From the NCBI RefSeq assembly GCF_008711175.1, contig NZ_VWNF01000021.1, forward strand, positions 1 to 64,000: a stretch of 64,000 nt of DNA, given 5' to 3'. A program made the translations under genes and the position numbers. Position 1 is the first letter of the stretch, and the number at the start of each line of letters is the position of its first letter. Origin of the DNA: Nesterenkonia ebinurensis. GTDB lineage: Bacteria; Actinomycetota; Actinomycetes; Actinomycetales; Micrococcaceae. The notes beneath the pieces were generated by a model. It ran no database searches. It was not told the origin of the DNA and saw nothing but the letters and a program-made list of their open reading frames with translations. Shown piece by piece: positions 194 through 62,838 of the stretch.

Positions 194-985
194 TCAGGTG
201 CGCCAGGTGGCTAGGCGGCCGCACATGCCATAAAGACGCGGGGTGCTCTCGCTGCCGGTCTGCGGTGTGCCACGCAGCACGGTGGCCCGGCCCAGGTGGG
301 AACCGTCGCCGGCGGCCAGCGCGGCCAGCTGTTCGGCGGTGCGGTGAGTCTCAGCGGCCACGTTGGCTTCGAAGATCTGCTGCCAGTGCTGCGTCTTGGA
401 CCGCACCAGGTTCACCGCGTGCTGGTAGAACCGGCCCATCGCCGCCTCGACCCCCTCGGACTCGATGGCGGCCAGCAGCTGCTCATAGCCTTCCAGGGCG
501 AGGTCCCGGCGGGTGCGGGCAGCCGCTGCCTTGGCGGCGTCGTCGTGATCTGGCAGTGCTACCGCCGCGGCATATTTCTCCGCATCGGCGACGATCTCTT
601 CAGGGAAGGTCAGCACCGCATCCCCGGCCTCCGGCAGGCCCGCGTTGGACATCACCACGGCCATCTCCAGTCCGCGGTGGTTGACCAGCCGGTGCACCGT
701 GCCGGGGGTGAACCACAGCAGCGAACCGGGTTCCAGGGCATCCCTGGCAGGACCAGTTGCACTGATGGTGTGCACCTCACCGCGCCCGGCAGTGATCACA
801 TAAGCCTCGGTGGAGAGGGTGTGCAGATGCGGGGACCCGCCGTGCAGTCCGTCGGGGGTGTCCCAGTCGTAGACGCAGAGGTGGGACAGACTGGTGCCGC
901 CGGGAAAGTGCGGCAGCGCTCGGTCCACCACAGTGCGGTTCTCCGCAGGGCTGGACGCTCCGGGGTCTGAGGCGGGATGGGACAT
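194..985 (-). CDS. Cupin domain protein, third gene of a LacI-controlled operon
   Basis: The protein has 263 residues. The N-terminal half is a cupin barrel: GSPHLHTLSTEAYVI supplies the H-x-H...E metal ligands and TPGTVHRLVNH a further histidine. The C-terminal half (about residues 140-263) is helical and Ala/Glu-rich and I do not recognise it. The ATG at 985 is chosen because it overlaps the TGA of the upstream DUF6807 gene (ATGA); an open frame continues further upstream but lies inside that gene. It probably binds a metal and acts on, or senses, a sugar-derived metabolite of the same pathway. Function is inferred from fold and context only. Confidence 0.75.
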   Translation of the reverse strand: MSHPASDPGASSPAENRTVVDRALPHFPGGTSLSHLCVYDWDTPDGLHGGSPHLHTLSTEAYVITAGRGEVHTISATGPARDALEPGSLLWFTPGTVHRLVNHRGLEMAVVMSNAGLPEAGDAVLTFPEEIVADAEKYAAAVALPDHDDAAKAAAARTRRDLALEGYEQLLAAIESEGVEAAMGRFYQHAVNLVRSKTQHWQQIFEANVAAETHRTAEQLAALAAGDGSHLGRATVLRGTPQTGSESTPRLYGMCGRLATWRT

Positions 986-1920
986 CAGAGCGCGTACTCC
1001 TCCGCGATGGCTTTCAGGTCTTCGCCCTGCATGACCTGGTCGATGAAGACGAAGCGATGGTTCAGTCTCAATGTACCGCCTGCTGGCAGGTGGATCTCCT
1101 GGTCGAAGGCCGGCGAGGGACTGGCCACCGCGAAAATCCCGGTGCGGGTGAACCACTTGACCGGAGGTACCTCGGTGTCATCCGATGCAGAGGACCCAGA
1201 GTAGACCAGCACTGTGCCGCCACCGTTGAAGTCGTCGTGCTCGGAGCTGAAGGCCACCCATTGAGCCTCAGTGCCCATGATGGCGGCCTCATCCTCCAGG
1301 CCGGTGGAGGAGACCAGGCTGCAGCCGGTCCAGGACCGCGGCCCGCGCCAGAACCATCCGGTGTAGCCGGCCTTCTCCCGCCCGGCGGTGGTGGGACTGC
1401 CCAGGTCAACGGTGGAGCCGCGCACGTTAGTGATCTCGGTGGTCAGGTCCACCGCCCAGACGCCGCGGCCCTCAGCAAAGCGGTTCAGGTCCAGCGAGTG
1501 AATGCGCTGCACCCGGTGCTCGTCGATCCAGTGCTCACCGGCTGCGGTGATCCACTGCAGATCCTCATCCAGGACGACCTCGCCGCCGGAAGCAGGTGCG
1601 GCCCGGAACCCGGTGTGCCGCATGGTGCCGAGGTTGTCCTTCATGACGTACCACTTGGTGTCCTTATCAAAGGAGGCCCCGCCCCAGAAGTTCTGATCAT
1701 CGACATGGGACCAGGTGAACTGCAGCCCGGTGTGCCAGCGGTGGTCCCAGGGCCGGCGCACCGAGGCTTCGGCTCCGGAGGTGAATCGCAGCGGGAACAG
1801 GTAGGGCTTGGGGGCCTCGTCCTGGGGTGAGTCCGGGTCGGTCTCATACTGGGCGATCTCCACGCCTCTGGCACTGACTGCAACCCCGTCGTCGTACTCT
1901 GCTACCTCAAACTGGCTCAT
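985..1920 (-). CDS. DUF6807 (PmoA-like) family protein
   Basis: The 311-residue protein carries the family pattern KPYLFPLRF, then RPWDHRWHTGLQFTWSH and NFWGG near residues 35-85. These proteins are annotated as DUF6807 or PmoA-family and usually sit in sugar-catabolism operons beside Gfo/Idh/MocA oxidoreductases, as here. The biochemical role is not established to my knowledge; the conserved His/Trp/Asp cluster suggests a sugar-binding or hydrolytic site. It overlaps both neighbours by ATGA junctions, so it is translationally coupled in a three-gene operon. Confidence 0.8.
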   Translation of the reverse strand: MSQFEVAEYDDGVAVSARGVEIAQYETDPDSPQDEAPKPYLFPLRFTSGAEASVRRPWDHRWHTGLQFTWSHVDDQNFWGGASFDKDTKWYVMKDNLGTMRHTGFRAAPASGGEVVLDEDLQWITAAGEHWIDEHRVQRIHSLDLNRFAEGRGVWAVDLTTEITNVRGSTVDLGSPTTAGREKAGYTGWFWRGPRSWTGCSLVSSTGLEDEAAIMGTEAQWVAFSSEHDDFNGGGTVLVYSGSSASDDTEVPPVKWFTRTGIFAVASPSPAFDQEIHLPAGGTLRLNHRFVFIDQVMQGEDLKAIAEEYAL

Positions 1921-4413: not shown

Positions 4414-5379
4414 TCAGGATGAGACGGGTTGGCGTCGTCGTGGTTTCTCCAATGTCCCGGAGTTGGGGTCTGAGGGATCTGCTGTCAGCCGGGCAGCGCA
4501 TTTTTCGCACCGCTGGGTGGCCGGAATATGCGCGCAGCCCTCGCAGTAGAGCTGCAGATTGGAGCAGCCGCGGTCCAAGCAGTTATAGAACGACGACGTC
4601 GCCCCACTACAGTTCACGCATTCACCCAGGGTCTTGGCGTGCTCGCTGAACCGGGTGTTCATCCGCCCGTCGAACACGTAGAGCTCACCCTCCCAGTAGC
4701 CGGCATCCCCGAAGGTTTCCCCATAGCGGACAATCCCGCCGTCCAGCTGGTAGACCTCCTGCCAGCCACGGTCCTTCATCAGGGTGGAGAGCACCTCGCA
4801 GCGGATCCCACCGGTGCAGTAGGTGATCACTGGCCGGTCCTTCAGATGATCGTATTTGCCAGAGTCGAGCTCGGCGATGAAGTCCCGGGTGGTCTCCGCC
4901 TGAGGCACCACGGCGTCGCGGAACCGCCCGATCTGCGCCTCCATGGCGTTACGCCCGTCGAAGAAAGTCACCTCCACACCCTGGGACTTCTTGGCCTCCA
5001 CCAGCTGGTGAACCTGCTCGGGCGCCAAATGTTCACCGCTGCCGATCACCCCGTCCTCGTTGACCTTGACCGCCTGGGGCACCCCGAATGCCACCAGTTC
5101 GGGCCGGACCTTCACGCTGAGCCGGGGGAAGTCCTCAGCTCCGCCGGCTGACCACTTGAATTCGGTGCCGCGGAACGGGGTGTAGCTGCGGGTCTCTTTG
5201 ACGTAGCGCTTCACCGCCCGCATATCTCCGCCCACAGTGCCGTTGATGCCGTGCTCGGAGATAATGATCCGGCCCTTCAACCCCAGCTCGCGGCACAGTG
5301 CCAGCTGCCAGAGCTTCACCGCCTCGGGGTCCTTCACCGGGGCAAACTTGTAGTACAGAACAATGCGGGACTCAGTCAC
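4414..5379 (-). CDS. trhO: tRNA uridine(34) hydroxylase (rhodanese family, TrhO/YceA)
   Basis: The 321-residue protein matches the TrhO layout: an N-terminal acylphosphatase-like domain ([20 protein letters not shown]), a central rhodanese domain with [11 protein letters not shown] placing the active-site cysteine at about residue 188, and a Cys-rich C-terminus with several CxxC pairs (ECVNC, CEGC, CEKC). The family makes 5-hydroxyuridine in the anticodon wobble position of tRNAs using oxygen. The last residues before the stop include an RRR stretch encoded CGA CGA CGC, rare codons that create a copy of the GGCGTCGTCG motif. It stands alone. Confidence 0.9.
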
Positions 5380-5395: not shown

Positions 5396-5406
5396 ACGAC
5401 GACGCC
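5396..5406 (-). repeat. Intergenic copy of the GGCGTCGTCGT motif
   Basis: The plus strand reads ACGACGACGCC here, the complement of GGCGTCGTCGT. It lies in the 217-base gap between trhO and the divergent GNAT gene, outside any protein. A second intergenic copy is at 47948-47958. No other feature is obvious in this gap. Confidence 0.6.
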
Positions 5407-6488: not shown

Positions 6489-7538
6489 ATGACCGCCCCC
6501 GCATCTCTGCAAGACCGGCTCAACGCCGGACCCGTCATCTGCGCCGAGGGCTTCCTGTTCGAGCTTGAGCGCCGCGGCTACCTCAGTGCAGGCGAGTTCG
6601 TCCCCGAAGTCGCTCTGGAGCACCCGGAGGCACTGAGCACCCTGCACGTGGACTTCCAGCGCGCCGGCTCCGACATCGTGGAGGCCTTCACCTACAACGG
6701 GCACCGCGAGAAGATGCGGGTGATCGGCAAGGAGCATCTGCTGGAGCCGCTGAACCGTGCAGCTCTGCGGATCGCCCGCGAGGTGGCCGACTCGCGGCCC
6801 GGTGACTTGATGGCCGGCAATATCTCCAACACCAATATCTGGGATCCCGCCGATCTGGCCAAGCAGGCCGAGGTGCGCTCGATGTTCGAGGAGATGGTCG
6901 GCTGGGCCCTGGAAGAGGGCGCCGATCTGATCATCGGTGAGACGTTCTACTACGCCGGTGAGGCGCTCACCGCCCTGGAGGTCGCCAAGGCCTCCGAGCT
7001 GCCGGTAGTGCTCACCCTGGCACCGATGGCCTTCGAAGAGATGGCCGACGGGGTCGGCGTCGTCGAGACCGCCCAGCGGCTGGAGCAGGCCGGGGCCGAT
7101 GTGGTCGGGCTCAACTGCTTCCGCGGCCCGGAGACTATGCTGCCCTGGCTCAAACAGATCAGGGAGAAGGTCTCCTGCCATGTCGCAGCACTGCCGATTC
7201 CCTACCGCACCACCGCGGAGGAGCCCACCTTCTTCAACCTCTCCGATGCCCGCGCCTCGGTGCCCTCACCGCATGGGCGCACCTTCCCCACCGCCCTGGA
7301 CCCGCTGTTCACCAACCGGTATGAGATCGGCGCCTTCGCCCAGGAGGCCTATGCACTGGGGATCAACTACCTGGGCGTCTGCTGCGGGGCTTCGCCGATG
7401 CATATCCGGCAGGTGGCCGAGGCGGTGGGGCTGACCACCGAGGCCAGCCGCTTCTCCGAGCGCATGGAGAACCACTTCATGTACGGCAGCAATGAGCGGC
7501 TGCCGGAGAACATCGTCGCACTCGGCGACCGCGCTTGA
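6489..7538 (+). CDS. Homocysteine S-methyltransferase family protein
   Basis: The 349-residue protein has the pfam02574 zinc site: GLNC (Cys210) and GVCCG (Cys298 and Cys299). The N-terminal AEGFLFELERRGY and the IIGETFYY region fit the same barrel. Members move a methyl group from betaine, S-methylmethionine or a similar donor to homocysteine to make methionine; the length and overall look suggest a betaine-homocysteine-type enzyme, but the donor is inference. AAAGGAG stands 6 bases before the ATG. The hairpin-rich leader suggests transcript-level control. Confidence 0.88.
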   Translation: MTAPASLQDRLNAGPVICAEGFLFELERRGYLSAGEFVPEVALEHPEALSTLHVDFQRAGSDIVEAFTYNGHREKMRVIGKEHLLEPLNRAALRIAREVADSRPGDLMAGNISNTNIWDPADLAKQAEVRSMFEEMVGWALEEGADLIIGETFYYAGEALTALEVAKASELPVVLTLAPMAFEEMADGVGVVETAQRLEQAGADVVGLNCFRGPETMLPWLKQIREKVSCHVAALPIPYRTTAEEPTFFNLSDARASVPSPHGRTFPTALDPLFTNRYEIGAFAQEAYALGINYLGVCCGASPMHIRQVAEAVGLTTEASRFSERMENHFMYGSNERLPENIVALGDRA

Positions 7539-7680: not shown

Positions 7681-10125
7681 GTGACTGAGAACGACGACGA
7701 CGCGGCAGCACTTCAGCTGCTGCGGACAGTGGGCCTGCCGGTGCGGGTCGGCGAGGGCTCCCCGATCAAGCACATCCGGACCCTTCCGGCGCGCACCGCG
7801 GTGACCGCGCCGTGGCCGGACTGGGTGCCTGCTGAGCTGAGAGCGGCCTACCGGCAGCTGGGAGCGCCTCAGCCGTATGCGCATCAGCTGGAGGCGGCTG
7901 AGGCGCTCCATGCGGGGAGGCACACCATCCTGGCCACCGGCACTGCCTCGGGGAAGTCGCTGGCCACCCAGCTGCCCGGGCTTGCAGCTATCACCGGTGC
8001 GGCTGCGTCGTCGTCGGTAGTTGCTCACCCCACCGGTGAGACGACCCTCCTCTACCTCTCCCCCACCAAGGCGCTGGCCGCCGATCAGCTGGATGCGCTG
8101 CTGGAGCTGGCCGAGACCGTGGGATCAGTGGGCCCCTCCGGCGGCATCCGGCCTGCCGCCTATGACGGAGACACCGATCCGGAGGAGCGCCGCTGGGTGC
8201 GCTCCCACGCCAATCTGGTGCTGACCAACCCGGATATGCTCAACGCCGGAATCCTGCCCAACCACCGCGGCTGGGCCCGGTTCTTCTCCCGGCTGCGCTA
8301 TGTGATCGTAGATGAGGCTCATACTGCCCGCGGGATCTTCGGCTCGCATACTGCTCTGCTGCTGCGCAGGCTGCGCCGAGTGGCGCGGTCCTACGGAGCT
8401 GAGCCGGTATTTGCCGCGGCTTCGGCCACCAGCGGCGACCCGGCGTCGTCGTTCGCCCGGCTGATCGGTGAGTGCAACTCCCAGGTGACTGCCGTGACCG
8501 AAGATGCTTCCCCGCACGGGCCGGTGGACATCTACCTGTGGGAACCCGCGGAGTCCGGGCTCACGGGGGACAATGATGCCCCGCTGAAGCGCAGTCTGAG
8601 CACTGAGGCGGCCGATATTCTCACCAGTCTGGTAGTGGCTGGGCACCGCAGCCTGGCGTTCATCAAGTCCCGCCGAGGCGCTGAGGTCATCGCGAACATC
8701 GCCCGCGACAACCTGCTCGAGGTTGATCCGGCGCTCAAAGACCGCGTGGCCACCTACCGCTCCGGGTACCTCAAGGAGGAGCGTCGTGAGCTGGAGGAGG
8801 CGCTGCGCACCGGTCAGCTGCTGGGTGTGGCCTCCACCCCCGCCCTGGAGCTGGGGATCGACATCTCCGGGCTGGACGCGGTGGTGATTGCTGGCTGGCC
8901 GGGCACCCGGGCGGGGTTCTTCCAGCAGCTGGGCCGGGCCGGGCGAACGGCGAAGACCGAACAGCGCTCTGCCGCGTTCTTCATCGCTGGCGACGACCCG
9001 CTGGACGCCTATCTGCTGGAGCACCCAGAGGCGATCTTCGCCACCCCGGTAGAGGATGCGGTCACTGATCCGCACAACCCGCATGTGGCTGCCCCGCACC
9101 TGCTGGCGGCAGCCCAGGAGCTGCCGCTGGTGCCAGCTGATTTCACAACGGACCAAGCCGCCGGCTCCCCGGGTCAGGCACCGGCCCTGTTCCCCGGGCT
9201 GGGTGAGCTGGTGGACTCGCTCACCGCGCAGGGGCACTTGCGGCGCCGCCCACGCGGCTGGTTCTTCGGGCACGACGATGTTTCCGCCGCCAGTTGGGTG
9301 CGAATGCGTTCCGACGGTGGCGGGCCCTACACCATTGTCAATGCGGAGGACGGGACCGTGGTGGGCGATATGGGGGCCACTCAGGTGCAGCCGCAGGCTC
9401 ATCCGCAAGCGGTGTATGTGCACCAGGGCAGAACGTTCCTGGTGGAGGAGCTGGACCTGGAGCAGAACACCGTGCTGGTGACTGCTGCGAACCCACCGTT
9501 CTACACCCAGGCGCGGGAAACCACCTCTATTGCGGTGATTGAGCAGCTGGAGCATCAGGGGTGGGAGGAGTTCCGGCTCTGCTTCGGCACGGTGGAGGTG
9601 ACCAGTGCGGTGGTGGGGTTCCAGCGCAAGGCGGTGGGCACCTCGGAGGTGCTCTCGGATGAGCCGTTAGAGCTGCCGCCTTCTACGCTGCGCACCCAAG
9701 CCATGTGGATCACCGCTCCGGAGACCGCCCTGCAGCGCTCTGGGGTAGTGGTGGAGCATATTCCAGGTGCGCTGCATGCCGCTGAGCATGCGATGATCGG
9801 CCTGCTGCCGCTGCTGACCAGCTCAGACCGCTGGGATATCGGCGGGGTGTCCACCGCCCTGCACAGGGACACCGAGCTGCCCAGTATCTTCGTCTACGAC
9901 GGGCATCCTGGTGGCGCGGGCTTCGCCGAGCGCGGCTACCGGATGGCCGCCCGCTGGTTGAGAGCCACCGCGGACACTATTGCAGCCTGCTCCTGCGCGG
10001 AGGGCTGCCCCAGCTGCGTGCAGTCGCCCAAATGCGGCAATAGGAACTCTCCGTTACACAAGCAGGGCGCACTGAACCTGCTGCGAATGCTGAGCAATGT
10101 AGGGCGGTCAGAGCTCCAGGAGTGA
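7681..10125 (+). CDS. DEAD/DEAH-box helicase with DUF1998-type C-terminal cysteine cluster
   Basis: About 814 residues. Helicase motifs appear in order: ATGTASGKS (residues about 86-94), VDEAH, SATSGD, and the motif VI QQLGRAGR. The C-terminus has CSCAEGCPSC followed by a further Cys at about residues 771-786, the metal cluster of the COG1205/MrfA-like group, which acts in DNA repair in Bacillus. GTG at 7681 is chosen: there is no Shine-Dalgarno, but TAGTCT at 7669-7674 stands 6 bases before it, a possible leaderless start. A TTG at 7678 is the alternative. Its 3' end overlaps the convergent M24 gene by 18 bases. Confidence 0.88.
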   Translation: MTENDDDAAALQLLRTVGLPVRVGEGSPIKHIRTLPARTAVTAPWPDWVPAELRAAYRQLGAPQPYAHQLEAAEALHAGRHTILATGTASGKSLATQLPGLAAITGAAASSSVVAHPTGETTLLYLSPTKALAADQLDALLELAETVGSVGPSGGIRPAAYDGDTDPEERRWVRSHANLVLTNPDMLNAGILPNHRGWARFFSRLRYVIVDEAHTARGIFGSHTALLLRRLRRVARSYGAEPVFAAASATSGDPASSFARLIGECNSQVTAVTEDASPHGPVDIYLWEPAESGLTGDNDAPLKRSLSTEAADILTSLVVAGHRSLAFIKSRRGAEVIANIARDNLLEVDPALKDRVATYRSGYLKEERRELEEALRTGQLLGVASTPALELGIDISGLDAVVIAGWPGTRAGFFQQLGRAGRTAKTEQRSAAFFIAGDDPLDAYLLEHPEAIFATPVEDAVTDPHNPHVAAPHLLAAAQELPLVPADFTTDQAAGSPGQAPALFPGLGELVDSLTAQGHLRRRPRGWFFGHDDVSAASWVRMRSDGGGPYTIVNAEDGTVVGDMGATQVQPQAHPQAVYVHQGRTFLVEELDLEQNTVLVTAANPPFYTQARETTSIAVIEQLEHQGWEEFRLCFGTVEVTSAVVGFQRKAVGTSEVLSDEPLELPPSTLRTQAMWITAPETALQRSGVVVEHIPGALHAAEHAMIGLLPLLTSSDRWDIGGVSTALHRDTELPSIFVYDGHPGGAGFAERGYRMAARWLRATADTIAACSCAEGCPSCVQSPKCGNRNSPLHKQGALNLLRMLSNVGRSELQE

Positions 10126-17715: not shown

Positions 17716-17720
17716 GACCT

Positions 17721-28232: not shown

Positions 28233-30014
28233 CTATCGGCCGGCGGCGTAGCCTTGGGCGCCGCGGGGATTGGCGGCGGCTTTGAGCCATTCGCCGTCCC
28301 GAGCTACAGCTGAGAGCCGACCCTCGGTCCAGCCGGCACCGACTTTCAGGTCATGGCCGCGGCGAGCCAGTTCCTGAAGCACCTCGGGAGCGAACCGGTC
28401 CTCGATCATCACCTGGGCGGGGAAGGACTCCCGCGGGTAGAAGGAGCTGGGCACGTGAGTGGAGTGGAAGGCTGGAGCATCAATCGCCTCCTGCAGGTTC
28501 ATCCCGCTGTGCACCAGGTTGAGGAACAGCTGAATGTTCCACTGGTCCTGGGAGTCCCCACCCGGAGTGCCGAAGGCCAACCAGGGCTTGCCGTCGCGCA
28601 GCGCGAAGCTCGGGGTCAGGGTGGTCCGCGGACGAGCCCCAGGCCGCAGCGAGTTCGGCAGACCCTCCTGCAGCCAGAACATCTGCGCCCGGGAACTGAG
28701 ACAGAAGCCCAGCTCAGGGATGGTGGGGGAGGCCTGCAGCCAACCGCCTGAGGGGGTGGCGGAGATCATCATGCCGTCGGAGTCCACTACATCTACATGG
28801 CAGGTGTCTCCGCGGGTCTCCCCGTTGTGCGCCACTGTCGGTTCTCCCACTCCGGCGGCCGGCGTGGTCAGGCTGGCCTGCGGATACTCGGGCAGCACAG
28901 GTGTGCGTCCCCCAGGTGAGCCGGGCAGCAGAGCCGTGGAGGCGGCGTCGTGCGCTATCAGTTCCCGGCGGGCAGCGGTGTACTCAGGGCTGAGCAGATC
29001 GTCCAGCGGCACCTCGGTGAAGCGGGGATCGCCGTACCAAGCCTCACGGTCAGCGAAGGCCAGCTTGCCGGACTCCACGATCAAGTGCACCCAGTCGACC
29101 GAGCCTGGGGCGATGCCATCCAGGTCGAAGCCCTCCAGCAGGGCCAGCTGCTGCAGCATCACAGGACCCTGTCCCCAGGGTCCTGTCTTGGCCACGGTGT
29201 AGTTCTTGTAGTCCAGGGTGACCGGGTCTTCCACCTCGGCCTGCCAGGCGGCCAGGTCCTGGGCGGTGAGCAGGCCGGAGTTGGGCTGGCCGGAGGTGTC
29301 CTGCACAGCGTTGGAAGCGCAGAACTCGCCGATGGCCTCGGCCACGAATCCTTGGTACCAGGCGCGCTGGGCGACCTCGAGCTGGGCTTCGCGATCGCTT
29401 CCTGCGGTCTCGGCCTCCTCCACTAGGCGCATGTAGGTGCGAGCGAGCACGCTGTTGCTGAACCGGCTATTGGGGGCGGGAACCTCACCACCGGGCAGCC
29501 AGACAGCCGCGGAGCTGGGCCAGTGCTCGGCGAAGAGCTCTCTGACTGTCTCGATGGTGCGCGAGACCCGGGGCAGCACTGGGTGTCCGTTCTGGGCGAG
29601 CCCGATGGCTGGGCTCAGCACTTCCCGCAGGGTCATAGTGCCGTGGCGGGCCAGCAGAGACAGCCATGCGCCGAAGGCCCCGGGAACCACTGCGGAGAGC
29701 AGGCCGGTACCGGGCATGATTTTCAGGCCCCTCTCCTTGAGCCTGGCCACCGTGGCGGCCTGGGGCGCAGGGCCCTGGCCATTGATCACCTCGACCTTCT
29801 GCTCCTTCTCGGACCAGACCAGAATGGGCACTTCTCCGCCGGGACCGTTGAGGTGGGGTTCGACTATTTGGAGCACGAACCCGGAAGCGACCGCAGCATC
29901 GGCGGCGTTGCCTCCGCGCTCCAGGATGCTCATCCCGGTCTGTGAGGCGAGCCAATGGGTGGAGGCAACCATTCCGAAGTCGCCGAGCAGTTCGGGGCGA
30001 GTTGATTCAAGCAC
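28233..30014 (-). CDS. Gamma-glutamyltransferase family protein
   Basis: The protein (593 residues from GTG 30014) has the family signature around ILERGGNAADAAVASGFVLQ and the nucleophile region GDTCHVDVVDSDG, where Thr would be the N-terminal residue of the small subunit after self-cleavage, and TPSGGWLQASPTIPELG. The frame is open up to 30161, but homology starts just after 30014; TATGCT stands 6 bases before that GTG, a possible leaderless start. Members cleave gamma-glutamyl compounds or acylate amino acids. I see no clear signal peptide. It stands alone with an operator-like palindrome upstream. Confidence 0.85.
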   Translation of the reverse strand: MLESTRPELLGDFGMVASTHWLASQTGMSILERGGNAADAAVASGFVLQIVEPHLNGPGGEVPILVWSEKEQKVEVINGQGPAPQAATVARLKERGLKIMPGTGLLSAVVPGAFGAWLSLLARHGTMTLREVLSPAIGLAQNGHPVLPRVSRTIETVRELFAEHWPSSAAVWLPGGEVPAPNSRFSNSVLARTYMRLVEEAETAGSDREAQLEVAQRAWYQGFVAEAIGEFCASNAVQDTSGQPNSGLLTAQDLAAWQAEVEDPVTLDYKNYTVAKTGPWGQGPVMLQQLALLEGFDLDGIAPGSVDWVHLIVESGKLAFADREAWYGDPRFTEVPLDDLLSPEYTAARRELIAHDAASTALLPGSPGGRTPVLPEYPQASLTTPAAGVGEPTVAHNGETRGDTCHVDVVDSDGMMISATPSGGWLQASPTIPELGFCLSSRAQMFWLQEGLPNSLRPGARPRTTLTPSFALRDGKPWLAFGTPGGDSQDQWNIQLFLNLVHSGMNLQEAIDAPAFHSTHVPSSFYPRESFPAQVMIEDRFAPEVLQELARRGHDLKVGAGWTEGRLSAVARDGEWLKAAANPRGAQGYAAGR

Positions 30015-32498: not shown

Positions 32499-33083
32499 TT
32501 AGATTCCTAAAGCGTCAGGAAGCAGGCTGACTACCACAGGCGCTACCCCCAGCAGGATGAAGGCCGGAAGGAAGCAGGCACCCAGCGGAAGCATCATCTT
32601 CACCCCCAGCTTCTCCGCAGCGGCCTCGGCCTGGTTCCTACGCTCAGCCCGGGCCCGCACCGCAGCCGCCTGAAGCATCCGCGCACTCGGCGCCCCAGTG
32701 GCATAGGCGAAGCTGAGATGCTCGCAGAAACTGACCAGCTCAGAATCCTCCGTCACGGCCTCAACTGCCTGCTCCCAAGCGGCTCCGGCCGCCAGCGCCC
32801 GGTGCACTCCTGCCAGCGGCTCGGCGCCCGGAACAGACTGGGCCAGCCGGGCGAAAGCCGCCTCCACCCCCGTCCCTGCCCTCAGCAGCGCAGCGGTCAG
32901 GTCCAGCAGCACCGCAGCATCGGCCTGCTCAGCAGAGTCTCTCCGGGTACGACGCCGCCAGGAAAGCACTCTGCCCCAAGCCTGGCTGCCTGCCGCACTG
33001 CGCTCCCCCGGCAGTGCCGGCACCAGCAGCAGAACCGCTGCGGCGGCTGCTAGGGCAGTGACCAGAACCCACAGACTAGACAT
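32499..33083 (-). CDS. tadC: Type II secretion F-domain protein, TadC-like
   Basis: The 194-residue membrane protein has an N-terminal span (WVLVTALAAAAAVLLLVPAL), a T2SSF cytoplasmic domain (AALLRAGTGVEAAFARLA), and two C-terminal spans ending LGVAPVVVSLLPDALGI. It overlaps the end of the TadB gene by 8 bases. With TadB it forms the inner-membrane platform of the Tad pilus. Confidence 0.82.
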   Translation of the reverse strand: MSSLWVLVTALAAAAAVLLLVPALPGERSAAGSQAWGRVLSWRRRTRRDSAEQADAAVLLDLTAALLRAGTGVEAAFARLAQSVPGAEPLAGVHRALAAGAAWEQAVEAVTEDSELVSFCEHLSFAYATGAPSARMLQAAAVRARAERRNQAEAAAEKLGVKMMLPLGACFLPAFILLGVAPVVVSLLPDALGI

Positions 33084-33822: not shown

Positions 33823-34940
33823 CCCAGCAGTTCCTCCCACCCCGGGCCCCTCTCGACCTGATCTGCCACCGTGGAGAGCACCGGCACCATAGCCAGCCGG
33901 GCGTCGTCGTACTTTAGGGCTGAAAGCGCCACCGGCATCCGGTGTCCGGCACCCCGCTCTACATGGACCACCGCATCCAGCGCGGCAGCCGCCTGGACGG
34001 CCACGGTCTCCGGAGTGAGGCCGGCCAGCGCACCCATCGCCACCAAGCGGGCGGGGACCGCCTCAGGGGAATTCGCGTGCACCGTGCCACCGGCCCCGGC
34101 ATGACCGGTGTTCATCGCGGTGAGGAAGTCACGCAGCTCAGCCCCGCGGCACTCCCCCACGATCAGCCGGTCCGGGCGCATACGCAGGGTTTCGCGCACC
34201 AGCTGGCCCATATCAACCCGACCAGCACCCTCCACGTTGCCGCCACGGCCCTGCAGGTGCAGCACATGGGGATGCTGCGGAGAGAGCTCAGTGGTGTCCT
34301 CCACGATCACGATTCGCTCTTCAGATGGCACCTCACTGAGCATCGCGGCCAACAGCGAAGTCTTTCCCGAGCCGGTGGCCCCGGAGACCAGACAGTTGCG
34401 GCGCCGGGTCACCAGAGTTCGCACCGCCTCCAGCCACTGCTCCGCGCCGATCCAGTGCTGAGCCAGGTGCTCCAGGGTGGCGGTGGAGCTGCGCGCCACC
34501 CGCACTGAAATCAACGTGCCCTCCACAGCGATCGGCGGGATGACCGCATGGATGCGGCAGTTGCCTATCCGGCCGTCAGCGCAGGGGTGCCCCTCATCCA
34601 GCCGACCACCGGCGATAGAGACCAGTCTGCGGGCCAATGCACGGGCCTGCTCTTCGGAGCCGATCTGCTCCCCAGTGTCAGTGAGCCCGTGTTCACCGTC
34701 GGTCCAGATGCGTCCTTGCCCGTCAAGTACCACATCGGTCACCCCGGCAGTGTCCACAAACTGCTGCAGCGGACCGAGCCCTACCAGCTCATCACGCAGA
34801 GCCTTGACCAGCTGTGCAGTGGTCCCGGTACCCAGCGCCATCCCCTCGGCCCGCACCGCTTCAGCAATCCGTTCCGCGCTGACCGGCTCTGCCGATGCGG
34901 TCAGCCGATCACGGATAGCCTCCAGCTGCTGCTCACGCAT
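33819..34940 (-). CDS. tadA: Tad pilus assembly ATPase TadA (CpaF-type)
   Basis: The ATG at 34940 overlaps the end of the Ssd-like gene by 8 bases and gives 373 residues; a longer open frame is an artefact inside that gene. Walker A is SGATGSGKTSLL, followed by VIVEDTTEL (Asp box), and RMRPDRLIVGECRGAELRD with GTVHANSP, the signature of CpaF secretion ATPases. It drives pilin assembly from the cytoplasmic face of the membrane. Confidence 0.92.
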   Translation of the reverse strand: MREQQLEAIRDRLTASAEPVSAERIAEAVRAEGMALGTGTTAQLVKALRDELVGLGPLQQFVDTAGVTDVVLDGQGRIWTDGEHGLTDTGEQIGSEEQARALARRLVSIAGGRLDEGHPCADGRIGNCRIHAVIPPIAVEGTLISVRVARSSTATLEHLAQHWIGAEQWLEAVRTLVTRRRNCLVSGATGSGKTSLLAAMLSEVPSEERIVIVEDTTELSPQHPHVLHLQGRGGNVEGAGRVDMGQLVRETLRMRPDRLIVGECRGAELRDFLTAMNTGHAGAGGTVHANSPEAVPARLVAMGALAGLTPETVAVQAAAALDAVVHVERGAGHRMPVALSALKYDDARLAMVPVLSTVADQVERGPGWEELLG

Positions 34941-38301: not shown

Positions 38302-40290
38302 ATGACCACCACGCCTGACGAGAGCGTCCAGACTTTCCCGCCGAGTGCGGATTTCGCTGCTGGTGCCGTGGCCACCGCAGAGAAGTACGACGCCGCCCAA
38401 GCTGACCGCCTCGGGTACTGGGCAGACCAGGCCCGCAGCACACTGAGCTGGGACAAGGACTTCGGAGAGGTGCTGGACTGGTCCGAGGCGCCCTTCGCCA
38501 AATGGTTCGTAGGCGGGGAGCTCAACGCCGCCTACAACTGTGTGGACCGCCATGTGGAGGCCGGCAACGGCGAGCGCGTGGCCCTGCACTTTGAGGGCGA
38601 GCCCGGAGATGCCCGCCAGATCACCTACGCAGAGCTGAAGGATGAGGTGGCCCGTGCCGCCAATGCCTTCGAGTCCCTGGGCGTGGCCAAGGGCGACCGA
38701 GTGGCCATCTACATGCCGATGATCCCCGAGACCGTGGTGACCATGCTGGCCTGCGCCCGGATCGGGGCGATCCACTCAGTGGTCTTCGGCGGGTTCAGCT
38801 CGGATGCGCTGCGCTCCCGGGTGGATGACGCCGAGGCCAAGCTGGTGGTCACCGCCGACGGCTCCTACCGCCGTGGCAAGCCCTCACCGCTGAAGCCCAA
38901 TGTGGACACCGCCCTAGCCCGCCCCGGGCACACCGTGGAGCATGTGCTGGTGGTCCAGCGCAACGGTGAGTCCGTGGACTTCGAAGAAGGGCGCGATATC
39001 TGGTGGCATGAGCTGGTGCCGGGCCAGTCCGCGGAGCACAGCTATGTGCCGCATGACTCGGAGCACCCGCTGTTCATCCTCTACACCTCGGGCACCACAG
39101 GTAAGCCCAAGGGCATCCTGCACACCACCGGCGGCTACCTGACCCAGACCGCGGTCACCCACCGGGACAGCTTCGACCTCAAGCCTGAGCAGGACGTCTA
39201 CTGGTGCTCGGCCGATGTGGGTTGGGTGACCGGGCACAGCTACATCGTCTACGGACCCATGGCCAACGGGACCACCCAGGTGATCTACGAAGGCACCCCG
39301 GACACCCCGCATAAGGGCCGGCTCTGGGAGATCGTGCAGAAGTACAAAGTCACCCAGTTCTACACCGCTCCAACCCTGATCCGCACCTGCATGAAGTGGG
39401 GGCGGGAGATCCCCGACCAGTACGATCTCTCCAGCCTGCGCGTGCTGGGCACCGTGGGCGAGGCGATCAACCCGGAGGCCTGGCTGTGGTTCCGCGAGGT
39501 GATCGGCGCCAACAACGGCCCCGACAACCCGCCCAAGGAGAGCCCCGCGCCGATCGTGGACACCTGGTGGCAGACCGAGACCGGCGCCCATATGATCGCC
39601 CCGCTGCCCGGCGTCACCCACACCAAACCCGGCTCCGCACAGACTCCGGTGCCCGGCGTGGAGGTCGGCGTAGTAGATGAGGAGGGTAAGCCGCTGGGCA
39701 ATGGCGAGGCCGGCCTGCTGGTGATCAGGGAGCCCTGGCCGGCCATGCTGCGCGGAATCTACAAGAATCCCGAACGGTACAAGGAGACCTACTGGTCCCG
39801 GTTCGGCGAGCTGTACTTCGCCGGCGACGGCGCCCGGTATGACGCCGAGGGCGACATCTGGCTGATGGGCCGGGTGGACGACGTCATGAACGTCTCCGGG
39901 CACCGGCTCTCCACCACCGAGATCGAGTCCGCCCTGGTGGCGCATGAGGCTGTGGCCGAGGCCGCGGTGGTCGGCGCCAAGGACGCCACCACCGGCGAGG
40001 CAGTGGTCGCCTTCGTGATCCTCACCGGCGCGGCCGCTGAGGCCACCAGCGACAATGAGGCCCTGGAGCAGGAACTGAGGGCCCATGTGGGCAAGGAGAT
40101 CGGGCCGATCGCCAAGCCACGCAATGTGCTGGTGGTCCCCGAGCTGCCCAAGACCCGCTCCGGCAAGATCATGCGCCGGCTGCTGAAGAACGTGGCCAAC
40201 GGTGACGAGGTCGGCGACGCCTCCACCCTGGCCGATCCCTCCATCATGGAGAAGATCGCCGAGGACATGCGCGCCAAGCACGGGTCCTGA
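38302..40290 (+). CDS. acs: Acetyl-coenzyme A synthetase
   Basis: The 662-residue enzyme makes acetyl-CoA from acetate, ATP and CoA via acetyl-AMP. It has the AMP-binding loop [45 protein letters not shown] with the hinge, and [13 protein letters not shown] with the lysine that is acetylated for control in this family. AAGGAGG stands 9 bases before the ATG at 38302; the open frame upstream is chance. Two Crp-like sites precede it, so it is probably carbon-source controlled. Confidence 0.97.
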
Positions 40291-43355: not shown

Positions 43356-44600
43356 TCAATGAGCCTGTTGAGCCCACGTGGCGTTGGCATACTTGCGCTT
43401 GTACCGAATGCCCCGGACAGCCACCCAGGCCCGCCGCTTGAGGTGGAACCGGTCAGCGCGGGCGATCATCGGGGTGTGCAGCTTCTTCTCCCGATAGAGC
43501 CGATCCACTTCCGCCAATACTGCAGGGTCGTCAACGTAAGTCTTCAGAATGGACCGCGGCACCACGGTGTAGAGGATCTCGGTATCCACATACACGCACT
43601 CCGATGACGGGTTCCTGCGGACCACATCCTCCACCAGGTAGCCGGCCAGGTTGTGCCCCTGGGCGGTGGCGTGCGAACTGGAGCGGCCTTGGCGGGTGTT
43701 GACCTCCAAGATCTTGAACTCGCCGTCGCGTTCGTCATACTTCAGATCCACATTGGCCAGCCCGGTATAGCCGATGCCCTCCAGGAAGTCCTTCAGCTGG
43801 GTCATGACCTCCCGGTTGAACTGGGAGCGTACTGCCGCGAAGTTCCCGATCGCGGTGGGCTCATGCTCCTGCAGCACCACCTGGGCCAGATTCACGAACT
43901 CCGCCCGTCCGTCGGTATGCAGGTAGAGGTCCGACTCGTACACGTAGGTGTCCCCGCCAGGGATGAAATCCTGGATGATCAGGGAGCTGCGGTACCCGGA
44001 GCTCTCAACACGGTCGACGACGCCGCGCAGCTCCTCGGCCGAGTACACCCGGTAGATCTTCTCCTGGCCTTGGAACTTATTGCGGTTGTACTGCACCGGG
44101 TCACTGGGTTTGACGATCACCGGGAAGCGGCTGATCTTCTCTGCCTCCAGCGGCTCCCCAGCCTGGTGGATGTGGGTCTCCGGGATGGTCAGGCCGTGCT
44201 GCTCGGCGAAGGGGTAGAACAGCTCCTTGAGTTGGAGAGTCTCCAGCAGCTCTGCGGTGGGGTAGTTGAACCGGTAGTGCTCCCCCAGTGCTGAAGCGTG
44301 TTCAATGATCAGGCGCACGTACTGGTCGTTGGTGCCTACCAGCAGAAGCGGGGCGGCGTCGTCATGATGTTTCTTCGCGAACTGAAGCAGGGCGGGCAGA
44401 AAAGCTTCGGCGGTGTCCAACTCATCCACCAGAGTGATGGATTCGATGATGGTGGAGTAGCTCACGTAGCCCAGCGCCATCTTGCCGATCACATGCGGTT
44501 TGACCCCGAAGCCTTCGTGGAAGGCGGTGGCCATGTGGTAGGCGTTGAGGTCGGTGCCGATCAGGACCGGGGTGAAGCCGTGCTCAGCTGACATGGGCAA
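43356..44600 (-). CDS. ATP-grasp ligase, D-aspartate-ligase-like (paralogue 1)
   Basis: The protein has about 412-414 residues (ATG 44600 or 44594). The start FTPVLIGTDLNAYHMATAFH is the N-terminal pattern of the COG3919 group that contains the D-aspartate ligase of Enterococcus faecium. ATP-grasp parts follow: FPVIVKPSDP, SLIIQDFIPGGD, ANVDLKYDERDG and the metal-binding EVNTRQGRS. It should couple a carboxylate to an amine with ATP. It overlaps the end of the RidA gene. With two paralogues upstream it probably builds a peptide branch, perhaps the peptidoglycan cross-bridge. Confidence 0.82.
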   Translation of the reverse strand: MPMSAEHGFTPVLIGTDLNAYHMATAFHEGFGVKPHVIGKMALGYVSYSTIIESITLVDELDTAEAFLPALLQFAKKHHDDAAPLLLVGTNDQYVRLIIEHASALGEHYRFNYPTAELLETLQLKELFYPFAEQHGLTIPETHIHQAGEPLEAEKISRFPVIVKPSDPVQYNRNKFQGQEKIYRVYSAEELRGVVDRVESSGYRSSLIIQDFIPGGDTYVYESDLYLHTDGRAEFVNLAQVVLQEHEPTAIGNFAAVRSQFNREVMTQLKDFLEGIGYTGLANVDLKYDERDGEFKILEVNTRQGRSSSHATAQGHNLAGYLVEDVVRRNPSSECVYVDTEILYTVVPRSILKTYVDDPAVLAEVDRLYREKKLHTPMIARADRFHLKRRAWVAVRGIRYKRKYANATWAQQAH

Positions 44601-47947: not shown

Positions 47948-47958
47948 ACGACGACGCC
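47948..47958 (-). repeat. Intergenic copy of the GGCGTCGTCGT motif
   Basis: The plus strand reads ACGACGACGCC. It lies in the 99-base divergent gap between the ligase cluster and the penicillin-binding-protein gene, just upstream of the presumed -10 of the ligase operon. Confidence 0.6.
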
Positions 47959-50363: not shown

Positions 50364-51308
50364 GTGAGCGCTGACAATACCGCAGCCTGGGCGGCTGCCG
50401 GACTCGGCGGCGTCGTCGGTGCACTGGGGCTGGGAACACTGGTGTATGCCAACCAGGTGGAGCTCAACCGGTTCACTCTCCGGCACGCAGAGATCACCGT
50501 TGCGGATCTGCCCGCTGAGCTGAGGGTGCTGCACATCTCAGACATTCACTACGTGCGAGGGCAGCAGCGCAAATACCGGTGGCTGCAGCAGCTGGCCGAC
50601 CTTGAGCCGGACCTGGTGGTCAATACCGGGGACAATCTCTCCGACCGGCAGGCTGTGCCCGAGGTGCTTGAAGCTCTAGGGCCGCTGCTCCAGTTCCCCG
50701 GGTGTTTTGTGCCGGGCTCTAATGACTACTACGCCCCCCGGTTCAAGAACCCGCTGAAGTATTTCAAAGGGCCCTCCACCCTGCATCCCAGCACTCAGTC
50801 ACTGCCCACTGAGGAGCTGTTCGGCGGTTTCGAGACCGCCGGCTGGGCCAACCTCACCAATGCGCACAGCTCCGCCCGGTTCAACGGACTGGAAGTGGAG
50901 TTCTCCGGAGTGGATGACCCGCATCTACAGCTCGATGAGTTCTCCGGCTGGCCCAGCACCGATGCGCAGCCGAAGCAGCCTGCGGATCTGAAGATCGGGG
51001 TGGCCCATGCCCCAGTCCGGCGAGTGCTGGAGACCTTTGCCGACTCCGGGGCTGATGCGGTCTTCGCCGGGCATACCCACGGCGGCCAGGTGTGCCTGCC
51101 GGCCTTCGACGGGTCCGGCGGACACGCCCTGGTCACCAACTGTGACCTGCCTCCGCGGTACGCTAAGGGACTGCACACCCTGCGCGGGGCTCACGGCAGC
51201 ACGGAGGTGCATGTCTCAGCCGGCATCGGCACCTCAGCCATGGCTCCGGTGCGGCTGTTCTGTCCACCTGAGGCGACCTTGGTCACCATCGGCCCGGAAC
51301 AACGGTGA
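50364..51308 (+). CDS. Membrane-anchored metallophosphoesterase (YkuE-like)
   Basis: The 314-residue protein has an N-terminal hydrophobic segment (AAGLGGVVGALGLGTLVYA) and calcineurin-like motifs in order: SDIHYV, NTGDNLSD, GSNDYY (GNHD type), and GHTHGGQ. Family members act on phosphate esters of cell-envelope lipids or nucleotides. GTG at 50364 starts it, 45 bases after the penicillin-binding-protein gene, so the two may be co-transcribed. Confidence 0.85.
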   Translation: MSADNTAAWAAAGLGGVVGALGLGTLVYANQVELNRFTLRHAEITVADLPAELRVLHISDIHYVRGQQRKYRWLQQLADLEPDLVVNTGDNLSDRQAVPEVLEALGPLLQFPGCFVPGSNDYYAPRFKNPLKYFKGPSTLHPSTQSLPTEELFGGFETAGWANLTNAHSSARFNGLEVEFSGVDDPHLQLDEFSGWPSTDAQPKQPADLKIGVAHAPVRRVLETFADSGADAVFAGHTHGGQVCLPAFDGSGGHALVTNCDLPPRYAKGLHTLRGAHGSTEVHVSAGIGTSAMAPVRLFCPPEATLVTIGPEQR

Positions 51309-55522: not shown

Positions 55523-56431
55523 TCAGAAACTCAGAGCGGAGCCGGTGAGGCGGCGGTAGGCGTCCAGATAGCGGTCCCGGGTGGCAGTGACGATCTGCTC
55601 CGGAAGCGGTGGTGGGGCGGCGTCGTCGTCCTTGTTCCACCCTGAGTCGGGGCTGGTCAGCCAGTTGCGGACGTACTGCTTGTCGAAGCTGGGCTGGACC
55701 TTGCCCTGCCGAACGTGCTGCTCCCACCCCTCGGCCGGCCAGAACCGGGAGGAGTCCGGCGTGAGCACCTCATCGGCCAGCACCAGCTCGCCAGCGGCAT
55801 CCAGCCCGAACTCGAATTTGGTGTCGGCCAGGATGATCCCGGTCTGCGCGGCGCGCTCGGCAGCGAAGCGGTAGATCCGCAGCGAAGCCTCGCGCACCCG
55901 GTCCGCCAGCTCGGCGCCGAGCGCCACTTCCAGCTTCGCGAAGCTGATGTTCTCATCGTGCAGACCCTGCTCGGCCTTGGTGGAAGGGGTGAAGATCGGC
56001 TCAGGCAGTTTCGAGCCGTCGGTCAGCCCCCCGGGGAGCGGGATCTGATGGACGGTGCCGAACTCGCGATACTCAGCAAGCCCGGAGCCGGTCAGGTAGC
56101 CGCGCACAATCGCCTCGGCCTCCACCATCTCCAACCGGCGGACGACGACGCCGCGGCCGGCCACTTCTTGGGGCACTTCAGTAGACACCACGTGGTTGCC
56201 GATGCCCTGGGCGGCTAGCTGCTCGAACCACCAGAGGCTGAGCTGGGTGAGGATGATGCCCTTGTCCGGGATGCCTGGGCTCAGGGCGTGGTCATAGGCG
56301 CTGATCCGGTCGGTGGCCACCATGAGCAGCACGTTCTGCCCGTCCCACTCAGATCCTGGGGCGGGCTGGTAGAGGTCGCGAACCTTGCCGGAATGTAGAT
56401 GCTGCCAGCCGAGAAGTTCGGATGCGCTCAT
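55523..56431 (-). CDS. purC: Phosphoribosylaminoimidazole-succinocarboxamide synthase
   Basis: The 302-residue enzyme joins aspartate to CAIR in purine synthesis. The N-terminus GWQHLHSGKVRDLYQPAPG and the motif EAIVRGYLTGSG, then ILADTKFEFGLDAAGE, are the standard SAICAR synthetase signatures. Its ATG overlaps the purD stop, so purD-purC is one operon. The coding run GGC GTC GTC GTC and a GAC GAC GAC GCC run each hold a copy of the GGCGTCGTCG motif. Confidence 0.95.
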   Translation of the reverse strand: MSASELLGWQHLHSGKVRDLYQPAPGSEWDGQNVLLMVATDRISAYDHALSPGIPDKGIILTQLSLWWFEQLAAQGIGNHVVSTEVPQEVAGRGVVVRRLEMVEAEAIVRGYLTGSGLAEYREFGTVHQIPLPGGLTDGSKLPEPIFTPSTKAEQGLHDENISFAKLEVALGAELADRVREASLRIYRFAAERAAQTGIILADTKFEFGLDAAGELVLADEVLTPDSSRFWPAEGWEQHVRQGKVQPSFDKQYVRNWLTSPDSGWNKDDDAAPPPLPEQIVTATRDRYLDAYRRLTGSALSF

Positions 56432-57744
56432 ACTGCCGGTTCCACACTGATCTGCCCGGCGACCGCTTTGGCGGCGATGTCGGTGCGGTACTGGGCGCCC
56501 GGCCAGCTGATCTTCTGCGCCCCGGCGTAGGCGCGGGCCTGGGCCTGGGCGAGAGTGTCGGCGGTGCCGACCACGGCCAGCACTCGCCCGCCTGCGGTGA
56601 CCAGCTCGCCATTCTCGTCGAGCACGGTCCCGGCGTGCAGCACTGAGACTCCAGTGTGTCGTTCAGCCTCCTGCACCCCGGTGATCACATCGCCCTTGCG
56701 CGGGGACTCCGGGTAGTTCTCTGCAGCGATCACTACATCTACTGCGTAGCCGTTCGACCACTCCAGCTGCCGATCGGCATCCAGCTGACCGGTGGCTGCA
56801 TCGAGCAGCAGCTGGCCCAGCGGTGTCTGCAGCCGCTCGAGCACTGCCTGGGTCTCGGGATCGCCGAACCGGACGTTGAACTCTACGACCTTGACTCCCC
56901 TGGAAGTGACCGCCAGACCACAGTAGAGCACACCGATAAACGGGGCGCCGCGGCGGGCCATCTCCTCGATGGTGGGCCGGGCGACGGTGTCCACCACGAT
57001 CTCGGTGAAGTTCCGGGTCACGCCCGCAGGATCGGTCTCCGCGTAGCCCTCCAGCCAGTCCAGCGGCGTATAGGCGCCCATGCCTCCGGTGTTGGGGCCG
57101 GCGTCGTCGTTATGGATCCGTTTGAAGTCCTGGGCGGGGCTCAGCGGAACCAGGTTCTGTCCGTCGCTGAGCACAAAGAGGGAGACTTCGGGACCGTCCA
57201 GGAACTCCTCGATGACTACCGTGGAGCCCCCGGAGAGACAGCTGACCGCATGCGCGACTGCGGCCTCCCGATCCTCAGTGACCACCACCCCCTTGCCCGC
57301 GGCCAGGCCGTCGTCCTTGACCACATACGGGGGGCCGAAGCTGCTCAACGCCTCGATCGCCTCGGCCGGGGTGGTGGCATGGACTGCCTCAGCGGTGGGA
57401 ACTCCGGCGGAGCTCATCACCAGTTTGGCGAAAGCCTTGGAGGCTTCAAGCTGGGCGGCGGCCTGCGAGGGGCCGAACACCGGAATGCCCGCATCGCGGA
57501 CAGCATCGGCCACGCCGGCGGCCAAAGGAGCCTCGGGGCCGATGACTACCAGATCGTAGCCGCCGTCGTAGGCCAGCGCCGCGACATCACGGGGGGCGCT
57601 GGCATCGACTGCTTTCAGCGTGGCGTCCTGGGAAATCCCGGCGTTGCCCGGGGCGGCATGGACCTCTTTGACCTGCGGGTCACGGTTCAGCGCGCGGACA
57701 ATAGCGTGCTCACGGCCTCCGGACCCAATCACCAGAATCTTCAT
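56428..57744 (-). CDS. purD: Phosphoribosylamine-glycine ligase
   Basis: The 438-residue ATP-grasp enzyme opens MKILVIGSGGREHAIVRAL and has VVKDDGLAAGKGVVV, HNDDAGPNTGGMGAY and EFNVRFGDPETQ, the GARS signatures. It makes glycinamide ribonucleotide in purine synthesis and is the first gene of the purD-purC operon. Confidence 0.97.
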   Translation of the reverse strand: MKILVIGSGGREHAIVRALNRDPQVKEVHAAPGNAGISQDATLKAVDASAPRDVAALAYDGGYDLVVIGPEAPLAAGVADAVRDAGIPVFGPSQAAAQLEASKAFAKLVMSSAGVPTAEAVHATTPAEAIEALSSFGPPYVVKDDGLAAGKGVVVTEDREAAVAHAVSCLSGGSTVVIEEFLDGPEVSLFVLSDGQNLVPLSPAQDFKRIHNDDAGPNTGGMGAYTPLDWLEGYAETDPAGVTRNFTEIVVDTVARPTIEEMARRGAPFIGVLYCGLAVTSRGVKVVEFNVRFGDPETQAVLERLQTPLGQLLLDAATGQLDADRQLEWSNGYAVDVVIAAENYPESPRKGDVITGVQEAERHTGVSVLHAGTVLDENGELVTAGGRVLAVVGTADTLAQAQARAYAGAQKISWPGAQYRTDIAAKAVAGQISVEPAV

Positions 57745-61687: not shown

Positions 61688-62838
61688 GCGGAGGCTCACC
61701 TATCACCTATGCTTCGGCCGGGGTGGATGTGGAGGCCGGCGACCGTGCCGTGGAGCTGATGAAGGCTCATATCGAGGCCACCCATACTCCGCAGGTGGTG
61801 GGCGGCTTCGGCGGCTTCGCCGGTCTCTACGACGCATCTGAGCTGAAACGGCTGCCTCGGCCGCTGCTGGCCACCTCCACCGACGGTGTGGGCACCAAGG
61901 TGGCGATCGCCCAGGCCATGGATATTCACGACACCATCGGATATGACCTGGTGGGCATGGTGGTCGATGACATTGTGGTGGCCGGGGCGAAACCGCTGTT
62001 CATGACCGACTATATCGCCTGCGGAAAGGTGGAGCCGGCCCGGATCGCCGCAATCGTCTCCGGGATCGCGAAGGCCACTGCCGAGGCCGGCACTGCCTTG
62101 GTGGGTGGTGAGACTGCTGAGCATCCCGGCCTGTTAGGCGAGCACGAGTATGACGTCGCCGGGGCGGCCACCGGCGTGGTGGACGCCTCCGCTGTGCTGG
62201 GCCCGGAGCGGGTCCGGGCTGGGGATCTGGTCATCGGCATGGCCTCCTCCGGCATCCACTCCAACGGGTACTCACTGATCCGCCGGATTGTGCATGAGGC
62301 CGGCTGGGCCTACAGCAGAGAGGTTCCGGAGTTCGGCCGCACCCTGGGCGAGGAGCTGCTGGAGCCCACCAAGCTCTACACTCAGCCCTGCCTGGATCTG
62401 GTGTCCCACTTCAACGGCGACCCCGCTGAAGCCGAGATCTCCCCCGACGCACCGATCCGTGGTTTCAGCCATGTCACCGGCGGCGGTATGGCCGCCAATC
62501 TGGCCCGCGTGCTGCCCAACGGGCTGATGGCCACTGTGGACCGGTCCACCTGGGCCTGGCCTTCGGTGTTCACCGTGATGGCGGATCTGGGCCAGGTGCC
62601 GCAGGCTGATCTTGAGCGCACTCTCAATTTGGGGGTAGGCATGATCGCGGTGGTGGCACCTGAGGCTGCCGACGGCGTCGTCGAACGTCTCAATGCCGCA
62701 GGTCTTCGCTCCTGGGTGATGGGTAGTATCAGTGCATACTCCCCGGGGGAGGTGGCCGATGCCGGTGAGGACTTTGTGCAGGGCGCCAAAGGCGTGGACG
62801 GCGGCGGCGTCCTGCTCACCGGCACCTACGCCGGGTGA
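61684..62838 (+). CDS. purM: Phosphoribosylformylglycinamidine cyclo-ligase
   Basis: The 384-residue enzyme makes AIR in purine synthesis. TYASAGVDVEAGDRAVEL, LLATSTDGVGTKVAIA, DLVGMVVDDIVVAGAKPLFM and GGETAEHPG are standard AIRS signatures. It is coupled to purF by an ATGA overlap. Near its end, GGC GTC GTC codes Gly-Val-Val and carries a GGCGTCGTCG copy. Confidence 0.97.
   Translation: MSGGSPITYASAGVDVEAGDRAVELMKAHIEATHTPQVVGGFGGFAGLYDASELKRLPRPLLATSTDGVGTKVAIAQAMDIHDTIGYDLVGMVVDDIVVAGAKPLFMTDYIACGKVEPARIAAIVSGIAKATAEAGTALVGGETAEHPGLLGEHEYDVAGAATGVVDASAVLGPERVRAGDLVIGMASSGIHSNGYSLIRRIVHEAGWAYSREVPEFGRTLGEELLEPTKLYTQPCLDLVSHFNGDPAEAEISPDAPIRGFSHVTGGGMAANLARVLPNGLMATVDRSTWAWPSVFTVMADLGQVPQADLERTLNLGVGMIAVVAPEAADGVVERLNAAGLRSWVMGSISAYSPGEVADAGEDFVQGAKGVDGGGVLLTGTYAG

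Follow-up and report, generated by a model that had tools for sequence, protein, structure and literature searches.

To our knowledge, few lineages are known to carry recognition words throughout the genome. Here we describe the decamer GGCGTCGTCG, the most frequent decamer in a 64,000-nucleotide stretch of Nesterenkonia ebinurensis DNA (contig NZ_VWNF01000021.1 of assembly GCF_008711175.1; hereafter the window, from the genome labelled G000), and set it beside four kinds of described word. KOPS and other words that orient the chromosome resemble it as short, G-rich words spread genome-wide, but in Kocuria the present word favours neither strand on either side of the origin. Uptake sequences of the Neisseriaceae form dialects between genera, and in this too our word is like them. 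Further likenesses to the uptake sequences of Neisseriaceae and Pasteurellaceae are a short, non-palindromic core with weaker flanks (PMC1939737), occurrence in both orientations and hundreds of copies, along with an excess that for our word is strong, genome-wide and independent of coding; our word differs in its weaker excess of one-mismatch forms and its lack of robust spacing, and competence of the host found no support here. With the Chi sites of RecBCD and AddAB it shares a similar copy density (559 copies in 3.74 Mb) and mismatch profile, whereas it is unpolarised in Kocuria, its motif is longer and the genome lacks the RecC family. HIP1 of cyanobacteria also shows a strong genome-wide excess (PMC1939737), but our word is non-palindromic and its one-mismatch excess is weaker. 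Among the matches listed for the open-licence literature, no title or abstract described the present word, and no uptake word of high-G+C Gram-positives was found among those matches.

Excess of the word over codon use

A DNA-level force keeps a non-palindromic word, approximately GnnGGCGKCGTCGTnnTC, at hundreds of places in this genome. The initial annotation had listed 14 copies of its core, GGCGTCGTCG, in the window, and every coordinate and strand proved exact. As it had estimated, fewer than one copy is expected by chance (100 dinucleotide shuffles averaged 0.32 copies, with at most 3 in any one of them), and 10 of the 14 copies do extend to GGCGTCGTCGT. Genes called with a simple codon-usage caller hold 12 of them, in the frames that had been named (six Gly-Val-Val, four antisense Asp-Asp-Ala, one Ala-Ser-Ser and one antisense Arg-Arg-Arg), and the copies at 5397 and 47949 fall between called genes. 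The remark that some copies use disfavoured codons also agrees with the called genes, where GTG (0.545) exceeds GTC (0.329) among Val codons and CGA makes up 0.076 of Arg codons.

In the whole assembly (3.74 Mb in 50 contigs) GGCGTCGTCG occurs 559 times, or once per 6.7 kb, compared with 145 copies of the reversed word and 45 of the triplet permutation GTCGTCGGCG. Codon-aware expectations were obtained from a sample of 856,652 bp (23%), comprising the window, the adjoining 20 kb, contig C1 and 20 kb each of contigs C2 to C7, in which 714 called genes covered 81% of the sequence. Synonymous codons were shuffled either within each gene or between positions that share both the amino acid and the flanking bases, 12 times each. 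The word is the commonest decamer of this sample, with 150 copies; Markov models of orders 4, 5 and 6 expect 11, 26 and 72, and those of orders 7 and 8 expect 118 and 149, near the observed count because these models contain most of the word. Its 127 coding copies stand against 25.2 under both codon-preserving nulls, and with neither null does any other decamer reach so large a z-score. All six frames were enriched over the codon null, three of them on just 2 to 6 copies each: Asp-Asp-Ala (78 versus 19.9), Gly-Val-Val (28 versus 3.9), Ala-Ser-Ser (11 versus 0.2), Thr-Thr (6 versus 0.1), Arg-Arg-Arg (2 versus 0.1) and Arg-Arg (2 versus 0.1). Between called genes there were 23 copies where Markov orders 2 to 5 expect 0.4 to 3.0, some of which may sit in genes missed by the caller. 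Triplet order matters, as CGGCGTCG was raised (342; nulls 149 to 197) and CGTCGGCG was not (100; nulls 82 to 146).

The usual preference of a G+C-rich genome for certain codons and dipeptides might be thought to produce such a word, as GAC, GCC and GGC are each used more than any synonymous codon and the word is common in many actinobacteria at no more than the level of its permutation. We consider this explanation highly improbable in view of the fivefold excess over two codon-preserving nulls, the enrichment of rarer-codon frames and intergenic copies, and an excess of Asp-Asp-Ala itself. Within the sample, counts remain in excess of a codon-aware expectation, and a null that preserves every dipeptide, and with it any favoured dipeptide, leaves the excess in place. 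The initial proposal that selection acts on DNA and not on protein thus gains support from the codon-aware shuffles, the six frames, the intergenic excess, the permuted control and synonymous conservation (below).

The longer motif came from a mixture model fitted against an order-5 background. At a strict setting the model found about 255 sites, a density of 3.0 per 10 kb of the sample; in G064, another genome of the family, it gave GCtGCGKCGTCGTaCTc. When the site fraction was left free the fit drifted to general coding periodicity in six of seven sets, G064 being the exception; fixing the fraction gave a clear motif in our genome and G064, and a failed or unclear fit in G180, G062, G026 and G168. 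Most single substitutions in the decamer brought counts close to the null, the exceptions being T5 to G (the K position) and weaker rises including G2 to A, T5 to A, C9 to T and G10 to C. Ratios to the codon null (three shuffles) were 4.9 for the exact word, 3.4 for T5 to G, 1.2 for other one-mismatch words and 0.86 for two-mismatch words. Other one-mismatch words reached 3.2 times the level given by base composition; in the tabulation of PMC1939737 the corresponding figure is about 2.5 for Escherichia coli Chi and about 11 both for one uptake sequence and for HIP1.

These profiles bear on the idea that a mutational or repair bias, with no selected function behind it, creates or preserves the word, as is imaginable for HIP1. 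Such a bias would suit an excess that is genome-wide and independent of frame, and biased repair could likewise yield conserved sites. The word is long and non-palindromic, however, and its one-mismatch neighbours are raised far less than those of HIP1, so we regard this origin as unlikely; triplet slippage is no explanation, because permuted triplets are not raised. The force is probably selection and not biased repair or mutation.

Distribution, conservation and effects on protein

The word is lineage-specific, being strong in Nesterenkonia, Kocuria and genus g41, present as a variant in g39 and absent from g36 and g37. Copies of GGCGTCGTCG were compared per genome with copies of the permuted GTCGTCGGCG, a ratio that spans 501:411 to 539:30 among 25 Nesterenkonia genomes and is 559:45 in our own. 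High ratios among the 158 genomes of the family were found in Kocuria rhizophila DC2201 (G180; 752:87, a complete genome in one contig of 2,697,540 bp), G135 (649:99), G064 (225:23) and G090 (220:21). G165, of the same genus as G180, had only 45:23; all 16 genomes of g36 and g37 were near a ratio of one, and many other family genomes near two. Across 256 genomes of the class, GGCGKCGTCGT:GTCGKCGGCGT was 693:32 in our genome; most of the class lay near or below one (tables read by eye), the highest there with at least 30 control copies being 100:38, 181:77 and 381:163. Codon-aware samples, drawn in part from seven other genera of the family (a minority of its genera), showed an excess in G180 and G064, a weaker one in G168 (g24) and G155 (g28), and nothing of the motif type in G126 (g36) or G127 (g37). 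A codon-aware sample of G026, from another family, had over-represented CG-spaced words of the same type. Pooled 20-kb samples gave 36 copies versus 9.2 under the codon null in other Nesterenkonia and 10 versus 1.6 in other g20 genomes.

Two samples showed further over-represented words. In G062 (g39; L125 to L129 and L091) the top decamers were of a C-dialect, CGCCGTCGTC (33 versus 5.4) and GCCGTCGTCG (29 versus 6.0). In G180 (L084 and L095 to L114) two words of another type exceeded the codon null, GTCCGCGAGC (39 versus 8.5) and CGTCCGTGAG (22 versus 3.4).

The window lies among Nesterenkonia sequences by similarity too, its ABC-exporter gene at 51353-53479 matching eight Nesterenkonia records at 78 to 87%. 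Conservation was followed at 16 sites in the window and the next 20 kb, in four species that are related to one another, so that the counts are not independent. Aligned sites were fully identical in 10 of 16 cases in N. alkaliphila, 2 of 7 in N. haasae, 5 of 11 in N. muleiensis and 2 of 6 in N. salmonea; for control decamers of like G+C and CpG content the figures, in the same order, were 80/338, 26/276, 40/250 and 9/164. Over the four species, where the amino acid was conserved, codons inside sites were the same in 81 of 91 cases, against 56.9 expected from those codons elsewhere, and control GACGAC/GTCGTC contexts outside the motif kept the same codon in 111 of 149 (106.7 expected). In farther relatives sites turned over (positions 55619, 56143 and 57100 in Table 1, where gapped rows count as not kept).

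Peptides spelled by the word reflect it in part. In our genome Asp-Asp-Ala outnumbers its reverse, Ala-Asp-Asp, by 168:82, with 101 of the 168 written as GACGACGCC and 15 of the 82 as GCCGACGAC; the same ratio is 90:45 in Kocuria (79 of 90 as GACGACGCC) and 38:20 in G064. Asp-Ala-Ala:Ala-Ala-Asp is 286:212, 202:100 and 73:47 in these three genomes. Where the motif is absent or weak, 100-kb samples gave Asp-Asp-Ala:Ala-Asp-Asp ratios of 8:8 (G126), 8:6 (G127), 11:4 (G168) and 17:13 (G155).

The absence of GGCGTCGTCG from 8.5 to 31.2 kb of the window, noted initially, is real, but the accompanying suggestion that acquired DNA is avoided is not supported. A flat density would predict 4.0 copies in these 22.7 kb; the expectation binned by G+C is 2.2, with P(0) = 0.11, and the gap is compatible with base composition because the density of the word declines along with G+C. 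Genes of atypical codon use gave no lower an observed/expected ratio than typical ones (lowest tenth 6.3, tenths above 4.2 to 6.2), although the absolute density in them is lower. From 16001 to 28000 of the window G+C drops to 51 to 57%, as in an acquired island.

Candidate readers of the word

The data call for a force that tells one order of triplets from another, works on the word in either orientation and varies from genus to genus. Its simplest cause would be a protein that recognises the word, and the cell presumably contains something that reads it. Our preferred explanation, to which we give roughly one chance in two, is a selected recognition word by which the cell's own DNA is marked when DNA is exchanged or repaired. 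A protein specific for the sequence would prefer DNA bearing the word, and this preference would favour copies anywhere and in either orientation. The sites occupied would change from species to species, and genera would drift apart in dialect. Uptake-type and recombination-type signals both fit the dialects, turnover and density. Within self-DNA marking, a signal for natural DNA uptake is our first choice, possible but held tentatively, and a Chi-like signal for an end-resection enzyme of the AdnAB type is the second.

Orientation was examined in 420 kb of Kocuria G180, whose contig starts with dnaA and dnaN (the terminus was assumed to lie half-way). Of 85 coding copies, 34 were on the leading and 51 on the lagging strand, against 9.5 and 19.8 (29.3 in total) under a null shaped by gene orientation; intergenic copies numbered 13 and 20. 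In this sample, then, the leading strand was not preferred and no change of strand occurred at the origin, contradicting for Kocuria the segregation signal polarised by replication that had been suggested initially, and a replication-oriented signal was rejected there. On contig C1 of our own genome, 51 copies lay on the plus strand and 66 on the minus strand. An abundant nucleoid or chromosome-organising protein, with sites over the whole chromosome, would suit the lack of strand preference in Kocuria, the occupancy of 20 of 21 spread 20-kb stretches (0 to 10 copies each), the presence of copies on both strands and in genic and intergenic DNA alike, and the sharp site seen in the mismatch profile. 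It would be unusual, we presume, for fixed protein sites to dictate amino acids or to be lost and gained so readily between species, and we regard this alternative as serious but doubtful.

Returning to self-DNA marking, the RecC family was absent from our own genome (the control search was positive in E. coli only), and adjacent pairs of long PF12705 proteins, probably nucleases of the AdnAB type, were present there, as in all 11 genomes searched, with and without the motif. A weak Pfam match had hinted that one AdnAB subunit is degenerate in Nesterenkonia; this idea was dropped because the translation keeps VDWKTG, a nuclease motif. A Chi-like signal would switch AdnAB from degradation to recombination. 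Its density resembles that of Chi, about one per 5 kb (PMC8022716), and among the words of PMC1939737 its one-mismatch excess is nearest to that of Chi; according to PMC13309787 it is unclear by what means AdnAB accomplishes a step comparable to Chi recognition. We nevertheless think this role rather unlikely, its chance being counted within that of self-DNA marking: the AdnAB-type pair also occurs in genera without the word, and the Kocuria strand counts above are unpolarised, where Chi-like signals are usually polarised (PMC8022716).

Several further observations weigh against self-DNA marking or one of its forms. ComEC, the channel used in transformation, occurred in 13 of 13 genomes tested, motif-bearing or not, and is not discriminating; like the AdnAB-type pair, it is found in motif-free genera, so that neither tracks the word. 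The lowest of the other 24 Nesterenkonia genomes (G008, G017, G009 and G003) have just 1.2 to 2.1 times as many copies as the permutation, with G006, G008 and G017 less than 80% complete. Both intergenic window sites were exact in 0 of 3 aligned cases, and conservation therefore rests on coding sites. The protein effect is not general, since Gly-Val-Val:Val-Val-Gly is 193:163 in our genome but 67:106 in Kocuria, and Ala-Ser-Ser:Ser-Ser-Ala is 114:122 in our genome. For uptake in particular, the one-mismatch excess over base composition lies below that of the tabulated uptake sequence, a feature that may or may not define such sequences, and the excess of the word is only weak in G155, which we take to be the naturally competent Micrococcus luteus NCTC 2665. 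Even spacing is a trait of uptake sequences, and GGCGTCGTCG in our genome had 0 pairs at 100 to 400 bp versus about 8.5 by jitter; this was not robust, as the fuller motif gave 20 pairs (about 25 expected) and G180 and G064 showed no effect.

The word may be, though we put this at somewhat below even odds, the first self-recognition word known from Actinomycetota, with dialects by genus, read in uptake or in recombination driven by AdnAB, and of such strength that it shapes codon usage throughout the genome and, in places, the protein sequence itself (Asp-Asp-Ala). Since the K. rhizophila DC2201 genome is complete and holds 752 copies, both the uptake and the AdnAB readings are directly testable.

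Copies and a dispersed repeat in the window

Table 1. Positions in the window of the decamer and of GGCGGCGTCGT (longer motif with K = G)
Element	Position	Strand	Context
GGCGTCGTCG	536..545	+	antisense Asp-Asp-Ala frame; overlaps GGCGGCGTCGT at 533
GGCGTCGTCG	4431..4440	+	antisense CGA CGA CGC (Arg), near end of gene 4414-5379 (-)
GGCGTCGTCG	5397..5406	-	between called genes; exact in 0/2 relatives aligned there
GGCGTCGTCG	7056..7065	+	Gly-Val-Val frame
GGCGTCGTCG	8442..8451	+	Ala-Ser-Ser frame
GGCGTCGTCG	31286..31295	+	Gly-Val-Val frame
GGCGTCGTCG	33900..33909	+	antisense Asp-Asp-Ala frame
GGCGTCGTCG	44015..44024	-	Gly-Val-Val frame
GGCGTCGTCG	47949..47958	-	between called genes; exact in 0/1 relative aligned there
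GGCGTCGTCG	50409..50418	+	Gly-Val-Val frame; overlaps GGCGGCGTCGT at 50406
GGCGTCGTCG	55619..55628	+	antisense Asp-Asp-Ala frame; overlaps GGCGGCGTCGT at 55616; exact in 1/14 aligned relatives (G015)
GGCGTCGTCG	56143..56152	-	Gly-Val-Val frame; exact in 0/11 aligned relatives
GGCGTCGTCG	57100..57109	+	antisense Asp-Asp-Ala frame; exact in 1/11 aligned relatives
GGCGTCGTCG	62674..62683	+	Gly-Val-Val frame
GGCGGCGTCGT, K = G form	28941..28951	+	
GGCGGCGTCGT, K = G form	32949..32959	-	
GGCGGCGTCGT, K = G form	38387..38397	-	
GGCGGCGTCGT, K = G form	44352..44362	+	
GGCGGCGTCGT, K = G form	63482..63492	+	

Positions 57834 to 58000 of the window belong to a dispersed repeat of about 140 to 170 bp, whose true extent may be longer as the query stopped at 58000. 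It had no match in the plasmid collection, and six more copies occur in the same genome at 83 to 91% identity, one of them at C1:429674-429809.

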